47,658 bases of DNA from Kiritimatiellales bacterium (GTDB taxonomy: Bacteria > Patescibacteriota > Gracilibacteria > Peribacterales > Peribacteraceae): positions 1 to 47,658 of the forward strand of contig JAIPIN010000003.1 in NCBI GenBank assembly GCA_021734665.1, given 5' to 3'. A program made the position numbers and the translations under genes. Below are positions 40,480 to 42,907 of this stretch, one piece after another (position 1 is the stretch's first letter; every line of letters begins with the position of its first letter). The notes beneath the pieces are model-generated. The model did not search any database. It was not told the origin of the DNA and was given only the letters and a program-made list of their open reading frames with translations.

Positions 40480-40640
40480 CCCCCAAAGGTGCCCCACAGG
40501 GTATAACCCCCTCTCCGAATAGACCTCCACCCCTAACCCCTCCTCCACAGGAGGAGGGGAACGCCGCTTAAAGAGAAACACATTTATTATCATAATAACA
40601 AAGCTCCCCTTCCTCCCCCGGAGGAAGGGGTCGGGGGATG
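40480..40640. repeat. GC-rich nested inverted repeats (CCCCTCCTCC / GGAGGAGGGG)
   Basis: Two hairpins: CCCCTCCTCC-ACA-GGAGGAGGGG (about 40536-40558) and CCTTCCTCC-CCC-GGAGGAAGG (about 40607-40627). Their flanks, CCTCCACCCCTAACCCC and GGGGTCGGGGGATGGAGG, are reverse complements of each other, so the whole block is a larger inverted repeat. This wording resembles REP/MITE-like CCTCACCCCTAACCCC repeats seen in other bacteria. No conventional gene is present. Confidence 0.7.
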
Positions 40641-40681
40641 GAGGAATTTTATGACCAATGAGCTGCCCTCTTTGAAAGATG

Positions 40682-40736
40682 AGCCCGGCCCCCGCGCGTA
40701 CGCGAGGACCGGGTAAAGAGTTCGACCCCCTAAGGG
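40682..40736 (-). terminator. GC-rich double hairpin after the small basic ORF
   Basis: On the minus strand GACCCC-TTAG-GGGGTC lies just after the stop of the ORF at 40740-40841, followed by a second stem built on CCCGG...CCGGG with internal CGCG pairs, and an outer CTCTTT...AAAGAG. Strong structure, but no terminal U run, so termination is only suggested. Confidence 0.4.
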
Positions 40737-40739
40737 GTC

Positions 40740-40841
40740 TTAGGAGGGTACACGCGGTCGCCGGCGCACAGTGCGTGGCGGTGCCTTCGGCCTCGAAGGT
40801 CCCCGAGTTGTTTTACGCCGGTTGAGACTGCGTCTCTTCAT
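40740..40841 (-). CDS. candidate 33-residue arginine-rich protein
   Basis: The ORF encodes 33 residues: MKRRSLNRRKTTRGPSR and then PKAPPRTVRRRPRVPS, about 36% Arg plus several Lys and no acidic residue. A strong Shine-Dalgarno GGAGGG lies 6 nt before the ATG, rare in this window where most starts are leaderless. Codons are GC-rich (CGG, CGC, CCG), unlike neighbouring genes. It is not bL34, bL36 or bTHX by sequence. It could be a small RNA- or ribosome-binding protein, or a chance ORF in a structured GC-rich region. A U8 tract just upstream may end an RNA encoded at 40972-41310. Confidence 0.4.
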   Translation of the reverse strand: MKRRSLNRRKTTRGPSRPKAPPRTVRRRPRVPS

Positions 40842-40971
40842 TAGAAGCCCTCCGAAAAAAAACAAGTGCCACTTCGGGCTACAACCATGTAGTCCATCCA
40901 AAAGCAGCTCATTAATCACAAGATGTAAAAGATCAAATAACAAGAAATCCACTTCCTAAATTTTAAGGGAT

Positions 40972-41310
40972 GACCAAGGAACGAGACGAAGCTCGTTCCT
41001 TGGTCGGTTGCGCCGCGCTGGGTCGACGCGGAAGAATTAGGCGCCCACTAGGGCGCCGATCACTTCTTCTTCGGAGGCCTCTTCGTCAAACGGCTGCTTC
41101 TCCGGATAGCCGCCGATCAGATGACATTGAAATCGCTCCATGTCCTCAAGATCGGAGCTGCAACCAGCAGCACGGCTTGGGCAGTTCCTAGGACAACTTA
41201 CAGATGAAGTCGTCCAACCCATTTTTGGTCCAAGAATGACCATGACAGAACCTCCGAGGGGGTCACAAACCGACATTCTTTATGTTGGCCATTCCATCGG
41301 GCCAATAAAT
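40972..41310 (-). ncRNA. candidate large structured RNA, unknown class
   Basis: No gene fits this 340-bp stretch, yet it contains about nine consecutive hairpins. Stems: 40972-40985 with 40992-41005 (14 bp); 41013-41017 with 41027-41031; 41040-41046 with 41051-41057 (GGCGCCC); 41091-41095 with 41108-41112; 41113-41118 with 41150-41155 enclosing 41123-41127 with 41140-41144; 41192-41199 with 41207-41214; 41232-41238 with 41274-41280 enclosing smaller stems; and about 41281-41290 with 41299-41308. The 41192 stem has a G-U pair on the minus strand but an A-C mismatch on the plus, favouring minus. It does not match RNase P, tmRNA, 6S or SRP landmarks. Confidence 0.5.
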
Positions 41311-41360
41311 CCTCATAAAGAAGCGGGTTTCTCGTTATTTAAACGATGCTTTCAAAGACC

Positions 41361-41384
41361 AAAAACCCTAGTCTAGTAGGGTCA
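41361..41384 (-). terminator. intrinsic terminator downstream of ahcY
   Basis: On the minus strand ACCCTA-CTAGAC-TAGGGT is followed directly by TTTTT. This is the clearest stem-plus-U-tract terminator in the window. It is about 190 nt beyond the ahcY stop, so it would end ahcY mRNA after a long structured 3' region. Confidence 0.65.
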
Positions 41385-41515
41385 ACTTGGGAAATACCTA
41401 TTCAATTAGCACACTTTTCCCAGACCCCTATCCGTTGGCTTACGGAAGCAGAGAACTGCCGGATAAATAAACCACGTGTGCATCATAACAAGCGTTAATC
41501 TACGCTTGTTTATAG
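41385..41515 (-). ncRNA. structured 3' region or small RNA after ahcY
   Basis: Three stems precede the terminator: 41487-41494 with 41503-41510 (AACAAGCG/CGCTTGTT, 8 bp); 41430-41434 with 41460-41464 (ATCCG/CGGAT) containing GCAG/CTGC (41448-41451 with 41456-41459); and 41388-41394 with 41416-41422 (TGGGAAA/TTTCCCA, 7 bp). CCGT (41432-41435) can instead pair with ACGG (41442-41445), so two folds compete. It may be the ahcY 3' untranslated region, a small RNA, or a regulatory element. It matches no riboswitch class I know. Confidence 0.45.
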
Positions 41516-41576
41516 TATCCGTCAAGGTTGATGTACCGCTTCAGCAAGACAAAAAGTCGATGATTATATGCCCTCC

Positions 41577-42827
41577 TTATGTCCCCTCCTGCCACTGCCC
41601 CAGATATGCCACTTGTTCGGGCGTTAACGTATCTATAGATAGCCCCATTGCCTGCAATTGCAGCAGAGAAATCTGATCGTCTACTTCGTCTGGAAGTGTG
41701 ATCACATCTACAGGAAGATTCCCTCTGTTCTTGGCTAGGTACTCACATGCCAATGCCTGACCACAGAAGCTCAAGCTCATAACTTCCGAAGGATGCCCTT
41801 CTGCCGAAGACAAGTTAACAAGCCTTCCTTCGCCTGCAATGTATATGACCTTGCCAGACTTTAGCATGTACTCATCTAAGTAATGACGCACGCGACGCTT
41901 GCGCTTGGCTTCAGATTCCAACGACTTCATATCAATCTCGTTATCAAAGTGACCGGAGTTACAAATTACCACTCCATCTTTCATCTTATCTATGTGCTCC
42001 ATTCGGATAACATGCAAATCACCGGTTACAGTGATGAATATATCACCCAAAGATGCAGCTTCTGTCATTGGCAATACTCTGTGACCATCCATTGCTGCCT
42101 GCAACGCTGCAAAGTTGTCTACTTCTGTAACAACCACTTGTGCACCAAGACCCTTTGCACGCATTGCGCATCCTTTTCCGCAACTTCCGTATCCTGCAAC
42201 CACTACTGTTTTACCTGCAATAAGAATATTTGTAGAACGAAGTATTCCATCAAATGTAGATTGTCCTGTTCCATAGTAGTTATCCATCAAATGCTTTGTC
42301 TTGTTGTCATTAACAGCAATCATTGGATACCTAAGAGCTCCATCTTTGATCATTGCATGCAAACGAATGATTCCTGTGGTTGTTTCCTCACATCCTCCAA
42401 TAATATTTTCCATTAGTTCTGGATGCTTGGTGTGAATTTCGGTAACCAAATCACATCCATCATCAATGGTAATGTTTGGCTCGGTTTCTATTACTGCTGT
42501 TAGAAACTTGTAGTAATCCTCGTCACTCTCTCCCTTATATGCCCACACCAATACATCCTCTTCTGCGAGAGCAGCGGCAATATCATCTTGAGTACTTAAA
42601 GGATTGCATCCAGTAATCGCAACCTTTGCTCCACCTGCTTTAAGTGTTCTTACAAGTACTCCGGTTTCTTTGGTTACATGAAGTGCCATTCCAATTGTTA
42701 GTCCTTTTAGAGGCTTCTCTTTTTCGAATCGCTCTTTAACTTTCATTAATGCTTCCATGCGTTTTTCGGCGATCTCTAGATTGAGTCGCCCTTGTTCGGC
42801 CAGTGATGGATCTTTTATGTAAGACAT
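41577..42827 (-). CDS. ahcY: S-adenosylhomocysteine hydrolase
   Basis: Reversibly splits S-adenosylhomocysteine into adenosine and homocysteine, relieving methyltransferase inhibition. About 416 residues. Motifs: ITGCNPLSTQDDIAAALAEE, ITIDDGCDLVTEIH, GGCEETTTGIIRLHAM, MIAVNDNKTKHLMDNYYGTG and the NAD-binding VVVAGYGSCGKGCAMRAKGL. The C-terminus ends QVAYLGQWQEGT and lacks the K-x-x-Y-R-Y tail that contacts NAD of the neighbouring subunit in eukaryotic-type enzymes, placing it with the short archaeal/Thermotoga-like form. I chose ATG 42827 because TACTAT is 8 nt upstream. A PfkB kinase lies upstream on the same strand. Confidence 0.96.
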   Translation of the reverse strand: MSYIKDPSLAEQGRLNLEIAEKRMEALMKVKERFEKEKPLKGLTIGMALHVTKETGVLVRTLKAGGAKVAITGCNPLSTQDDIAAALAEEDVLVWAYKGESDEDYYKFLTAVIETEPNITIDDGCDLVTEIHTKHPELMENIIGGCEETTTGIIRLHAMIKDGALRYPMIAVNDNKTKHLMDNYYGTGQSTFDGILRSTNILIAGKTVVVAGYGSCGKGCAMRAKGLGAQVVVTEVDNFAALQAAMDGHRVLPMTEAASLGDIFITVTGDLHVIRMEHIDKMKDGVVICNSGHFDNEIDMKSLESEAKRKRRVRHYLDEYMLKSGKVIYIAGEGRLVNLSSAEGHPSEVMSLSFCGQALACEYLAKNRGNLPVDVITLPDEVDDQISLLQLQAMGLSIDTLTPEQVAYLGQWQEGT

Positions 42828-42907
42828 TGGGAGAAATAGTAGCATTCTAATGCTAAAAAGGAACCAATATATCTATCAATTTAAATAGTATTAGAAGGCT
42901 TCGCATC

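Follow-up and report, generated by a model that had tools for sequence, protein, structure and literature searches.

The structured stretch at positions 40,972 to 41,310 of the window, by which we mean the whole 47,658-nt stretch of DNA analyzed here, is likely to belong to the first of two tandem units in an array of small-protein genes laid out on the plan of an rRNA operon. As judged from sequence, each unit comprises a boxA-like element matching in kind those of the same organisms' 16S and 23S leaders, one arm of a long-range closing helix, a small ORF preceded by a Shine-Dalgarno sequence (SD-ORF), a hairpin, and the other arm of the helix. The evidence lies in this anatomy, its recurrence in other genomes, compensatory changes in the arms, the likeness of the motif to local rRNA leaders, and coding signals in the ORFs. 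The active strand is the minus strand.

The window comes from a metagenome-assembled genome (MAG) of 1.05 Mb that is 82.7% complete, and the nearest named relatives of its ahcY were found in Patescibacteria MAGs, mainly Candidatus Peribacteria / Peregrinibacteria. The gap of approximately 1.15 kb between ahcY and polX contains the structured stretch and the two tandem units, W1 and W2 (Table 1). Unit W1 extends on the minus strand from its boxA-like element at 41360 to the end of its 3' arm at 40933, and the limits 40972-41310 set by the first-pass annotation cut through it. Directly downstream of W2, a G+C-rich palindromic dispersed repeat of about 125 bp occupies 40523-40647, with several copies in the same genome and pieces in many relatives.

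Table 1. Features of the ahcY-polX region of the window, listed in the direction of transcription of the array
Feature	Position	Strand	Basis or remark
ahcY	41577-42845	minus	name from first-pass annotation and sequence likeness, without family search
Promoter-like pair TTGACG-17-TAGATT at array head	41497-41525	minus	motif scan; same element in G001
Leader, ~135 nt between promoter and boxA, small hairpin at end	41361-41496	minus	G001 match
boxA-like element W1 (GGTCTTTGAAAGCATCG)	41344-41360	minus	R1/R2 models; 9/11 E. coli boxA positions
W1 closing helix, 5' arm	41318-41342	minus	pairs with 40957-40933; closed in MFE fold
Shine-Dalgarno GGAGGT of ORF W1	41250-41255	minus	6 nt before ATG
ORF W1, 68 codons, four Cys, acidic tail	41040-41243	minus	ATG at 41243, stop at 41040
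GGCGCCC/GGGCGCC stem over last codons of ORF W1	41040-41057	minus	stem scan
Perfect 14-bp hairpin, loop CUUCGU	40972-41005 (40972-40985/40992-41005)	minus	14 nt before W1 3' arm
W1 closing helix, 3' arm	40933-40957	minus	pairing test and MFE fold; adjoins W2 boxA
boxA-like element W2 (GATCTTTTACATCTTGT)	40918-40934	minus	R1/R2 models; 9/11 E. coli boxA positions
W2 closing helix, 5' arm	40900-40924	minus	pairs with 40670-40646
Shine-Dalgarno GGAGG of ORF W2	40849-40853	minus	ORF/SD scan
ORF W2, 33 codons, Arg-rich, net charge +14	40740-40841	minus	ORF scan
13-bp hairpin of unit W2	40684-40713	minus	13 nt before W2 3' arm
W2 closing helix, 3' arm	40646-40670	minus	repeat search and pairing test
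polX	39461 to ~40411	minus	name from first-pass annotation and sequence likeness, without family search

The interval had been described as a large multi-hairpin RNA candidate in the size and complexity range of catalytic or ornate RNAs, with no overlapping ORF that has family features and no known family. Its strong structure was borne out, as it folded more stably than dinucleotide shuffles (z -6.1 on the plus and -5.7 on the minus strand); the excess remained when the 14-bp hairpin was taken out (z -4.76 plus, -3.68 minus), and unit W1, folded from arm to arm, scored z -7.38, its arms pairing with one another. The two stems singled out at first pass, the perfect 14-bp stem with its CUUCGU loop as read on the minus strand and the GGCGCCC/GGGCGCC stem, are both present. 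The suggested comparison with Rfam covariance models gave no family at the gathering cut-off and no credible weak match in the interval, and an Rfam 15 scan of the window at gathering score returned two tRNAs only and no rRNA. The supposed absence of an overlapping ORF was not confirmed: the SD-ORF of 68 codons on the minus strand occupies most of the interval, whose interior reads as a small mRNA that codes for protein and has a hairpin at its 3' end, and not as a catalytic or ornate non-coding RNA. The idea of an undescribed structured RNA thus stands in so far as the feature is conserved and lacks an Rfam family, but the feature is no ornate RNA standing by itself. Its conserved parts are the boxA-like element and the long-range closing helix, which lie outside most of 40972-41310; among the interior stems, conservation is established for the 3' hairpin only.

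Homologous loci downstream of ahcY and upstream of polX in related CPR genomes, which the first-pass annotation had proposed to look for, were found, and they carry compensatory changes. The ORF W1 protein used as a query matched one of 96 related genomes (its own) and nothing in collections of general genome contigs or viral contigs, and relatives of the array were reached through the motif only. The interval upstream of ORF W1 (41352-41545) gave a 78% DNA match to G001, the closest relative. Side-by-side reading of the ahcY-polX gaps in the window and three genomes of its genus revealed a stretch near TTTGnTCTTTnAAATCATTG that recurs before small SD-ORFs, with two copies in the window, three in G001, and two in G004. 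R1, a sequence model built from the seven copies, detected no additional match below E 0.009 in five genomes of the genus, where the strong matches all lie at the ahcY-polX site. In the family, R1 matched 30 of 74 genomes (E<=0.01), and tandem copies a few hundred bases apart were again present inside the matched loci. A second model (R2) was derived from 39 of the 46 R1 hits after seven short or truncated hits had been dropped. Across the class, R2 had matches at E<=0.01 in 72 of 353 genomes, including 46 from the family, and at E<=1e-4 it matched 31 family genomes versus one in the rest of the class. Matches outside the family had mostly E values of about 0.001-0.01, and the best of them (G282) was without a helix. 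In two genomes of the same genus, G002 and G003, neither R1 nor R2 detected a unit at E<=0.01, which counts against the reading favored here.

The flanking genes of 42 loci (the window and L034 excluded) were ahcY and polX in 22, ahcY only in seven, polX only in one, and neither in 12. Six of these last 12 loci hold helix-bearing units, for example four units in G034 (L116), so that the arrays are located mainly, but not only, between ahcY and polX.

Each motif is followed by an arm with a consensus near GAAACCTGCTCT, the complement of which lies approximately 100-670 nt downstream, past the ORF and a strong hairpin. This pairing was tested on the 67 R2 hits of 44 loci, of which one at a contig end was dropped, leaving 66 scored units; a unit passed when, out of 100 dinucleotide-shuffled versions of its downstream DNA, at most five reached the score of its own arm. 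The helix exceeded the shuffles in 55 of the 66 units, and in 38 no shuffle reached the score. The mean pairing score was 37.0 with the unit's own downstream region; downstream regions of other units gave 24.3, shuffles 23.3, and the DNA upstream of the same unit 23.2. Ranked among other loci, the own partner came first in 29 units and within the top three in 46, a rank that is limited because the arms are alike between units; the 5' arm of W1 placed its own partner first among 65 downstream regions. The arms of W2 were listed independently by a repeat search as an inverted repeat (40646-40666/40904-40924). In a further sample of eight named loci outside the scored set, 11 of 14 units passed. 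The 11 of 66 units that failed count against the favored reading.

At most columns of the anchored helix, all of AT, TA, GC, and CG were found. When G.U and A.C mismatches were both scored -1, G.U was more frequent (83 to 45; by unit 27 to 6), pointing to the sense RNA as the paired strand, although the 55 units had been selected with a score slightly favoring G.U, which leaves a small bias in this count. With both mismatches scored -3, the excess was not significant (54 to 35, p 0.056). Most units are flanked by complementary strands maintained through compensatory change, as in a leader-trailer processing helix.

The E. coli boxA consensus is GYTCTTTAANA according to the part of PMC5725501 covered here. 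Every one of the 55 units that passed the helix test (stem units) has a motif agreeing with it at 8-11 of the 11 positions. In the 16S leaders of four genus genomes, the motif precedes CAGAGTAGAGAAG; at three of these loci, a sequence complementary to this tail occurs beyond the 16S gene, with a pairing of 15-19 bp; at the fourth, L083, no such trailer occurred within the stretch examined. With filters off, the top four matches in 25.8 kb of R2, which had been trained without rRNA, were exactly the four 16S leaders (10.4-11.7 bits; next match 6.2). With default filters it found no 16S leader, which again counts against the favored reading. R2 also matched at the 23S leader position in five of six loci, clearly in L236, from the window's own genome, and in L239, and weakly in L241, L237, and L235; the 23S locus L234 gave no match. 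The same motif thus appears, at the level of sequence, in the organisms' own rRNA leaders. The units themselves enclose no rRNA, their bodies carrying small ORFs. The genes nusB and rnc (RNase III) were each detected in 11 of the 12 genomes tested, and the two lie about 0.5 kb apart or less in all 10 genomes having both on one contig; G032 yielded neither, a point against the favored reading. A group I intron (RF00028) was observed at 253-581 of L083, near the 16S match of G004.

A -35/-10 pair with TTGAC within 220 nt upstream was detected in 22 of 36 first units, one of 19 later units, and 4% of shuffles. Promoters at the heads and their rarity at later units indicate that the arrays are mostly self-promoted and that later units appear to depend on read-through. 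Leaders of similar length with shared pieces occur in 14 arrays (that of the window and 13 others), and their consensus fold was weak, with four pairs on a poor alignment. The ~135-nt leader may be a conserved RNA of its own. SRP RNA was rejected as its identity, as the whole genome of the window, 82.7% complete, gave no match to the bacterial small SRP RNA (RF00169).

Close to the 3' arm, 47 of 55 stem units carry a hairpin at least 11 bp long, versus none of 275 shuffled tails, and 43 of these 47 hairpins end 4-16 nt ahead of the arm. The 14-bp hairpin of W1 was not listed as an intrinsic terminator by the terminator scan and lacks the U-tract. U-tracts are rare after the unit hairpins in general, most having 2-4 T in the next 8 nt, which was counted against the antitermination reading.

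Cargo ORFs, defined by an ATG, at least 24 codons, and a Shine-Dalgarno match of at least 4 nt, were sought in the 55 stem units, the 11 of 66 units without a helix being left out of both ORF and hairpin counts. A sense SD-ORF was present in 47 of 55 units (47 of the 52 with bodies over 140 nt), and an antisense SD-ORF in only seven of 55. The eight stem units without an SD-ORF count against the favored reading. Three of the ORF-less units, L121, the second unit of L119, and the L149 unit at 373, have bodies of 55-93 nt with a hairpin; these short units may represent small non-coding RNAs produced in the same way. The predicted products have a net charge of +5 or more in 34 of 47 cases and at least two Cys in 21 of 47, some with Cys pairs or patterns resembling C2HC fingers, and they are probably associated with nucleic acid or the ribosome. 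Several ORF families were found repeatedly between genomes. The closest ORF pair, at 72% identity, gave dN 0.20 and dS 0.74, the remaining pairs being more diverged.

No named family was obtained for ORF W1 over the cut-offs of Pfam and NCBIfam or in PHROGs, and none of the unit ORFs sampled exceeded a cut-off (W1 and ten others against Pfam, W1 against NCBIfam, and ten against PHROGs). In a small set, blastp related ORF W1 to the first-unit ORFs of L134 (E 1e-4) and L140 (E 0.002). When a profile built from four relatives, L178 among them, was searched against 5000 shuffles of W1 and the other unit ORFs, ORF W1 came out on top (E 0.0024; best shuffle 0.023), suggesting a modest family link. 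The first-unit ORFs of G001 and G004, the closest relatives with arrays, are unrelated to ORF W1, in G001 despite an ahcY 94% identical to that of the window; this and the modest family link count against the favored reading. Between G001 and the window, the frame of the array is constant and its cargo variable.

In an array of this kind, the transcribed boxA would load NusB/S10 onto RNA polymerase, and the polymerase so modified would pass the tandem hairpins and resist Rho. By analogy with pre-16S RNA, RNase III-type processing would cut the closing helix and release small mRNAs, which the 3' hairpins would protect and which would then be translated. As a guess, and the least certain step, the predicted products might bind nucleic acid or the ribosome and be made in step with rRNA. 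More broadly, and tentatively, Peribacteria may possess a dedicated rRNA-style channel for fast-changing small proteins, in which promoter, leader, boxA antitermination, and leader-trailer processing would act on arrays of tiny mRNAs and lineage-specific RNA- or ribosome-binding proteins would be tied to rRNA synthesis.

Four other explanations were weighed. If the arms were terminal inverted repeats of a MITE- or IS-like element with a small ORF, their complementarity would belong to DNA ends and not to RNA; every unit is indeed bounded by inverted repeats of approximately 15-30 nt, ~100-670 nt apart, and the dispersed repeat at 40523-40647 adjoins. We consider this very unlikely given the 22 of 42 loci between ahcY and polX and seven more with ahcY alone, the confinement of strong matches in the window's genus to one place, and the excess of G.U over A.C on the sense strand, besides which boxA, promoter, and arms share one orientation and 16S has an identical layout. 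Integron-like cassettes, with boxA and arms as the recombination site and exchangeable cargo, would suit the constant frame and varying cargo seen in G001. Since the arms lie hundreds of bases apart, pair across the cargo instead of inside one site, and differ as pairs from unit to unit, we find this reading hardly credible.

A translation switch of the hok type, in which end pairing silences the mRNA until it is processed and the boxA likeness is secondary, is unlikely: tandem units whose motif recurs in 16S and 23S leaders speak for a role in transcription and processing, no antisense RNA gene was identified, and most products are basic, unlike membrane peptides, even though long-range 5'-3' pairing, a stable 3' hairpin, and a small ORF with a fast-changing product are all in place. 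The view taken at first pass, a non-coding structured RNA with incidental ORFs, could draw on the three units with short hairpin-bearing bodies and no ORF, but the bias of SD-ORFs to the sense strand, the recurrence of ORF families, and dN below dS leave it only a slim chance.

Several known systems share parts of the proposed small-protein array. boxA is known to precede CRISPR arrays. Lambda nut sites, which serve N antitermination and terminator read-through, consist of boxA and a spacer able to form a small hairpin, and the unit boxA is likewise followed by a spacer with a predicted small hairpin. hok/sok-type mRNAs show long-range 5'-3' pairing around a small ORF, as the units do, but the units differ in their boxA, tandem copies, mostly basic products, and lack of an identified antisense RNA. 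In pre-16S RNA, boxA is followed by a helix whose other strand lies past the gene (PMC10250234, in the part covered). The units resemble the E. coli rRNA operon leader in having boxA just before a long helix spanning the gene, with promoter and leader ahead; they differ in that they enclose a small mRNA and not rRNA, are repeated in tandem with a separate boxA and helix for every unit, and carry a strong hairpin before the 3' arm. boxA has also been described, in the covered part of PMC5725501, in the mRNA leaders of suhB and a ParE-like toxin, suhB translation being repressed by a single boxA near the gene start. The units similarly have boxA outside rRNA and ahead of protein genes, but unlike in suhB it stands about 100 nt upstream of the start codon, in arrayed units that have a closing helix.

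The component parts, including boxA ahead of a few protein genes, are known already. In the open-access literature (subscription papers and preprints being outside the scope), no description of small-protein arrays with boxA and their own leader-trailer helix was found, and the covered part of the Peribacteria genome paper (PMC4736985) holds nothing on such arrays. boxA antitermination and the leader-trailer helix are regarded as rRNA equipment, and finding them used repeatedly around small mRNAs would mean that the route of rRNA transcription and processing can act as a general expression cassette. It would also point to uncharacterized small proteins, possibly tied to ribosome supply, in an uncultured CPR branch. 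The rule of motif plus helix offers a way to find such genes, which are too short and too variable for homology search.

A Peregrinibacteria locus (L195, 5655-6012) contains two R2 matches approximately 300 nt apart, for which a helix was tested and not found. boxA-like leaders without a closing helix were also observed away from ahcY in L133 (unit 2503, reverse) and L152 (2666, reverse), where they precede two ORFs of about 120 codons that are alike by eye.
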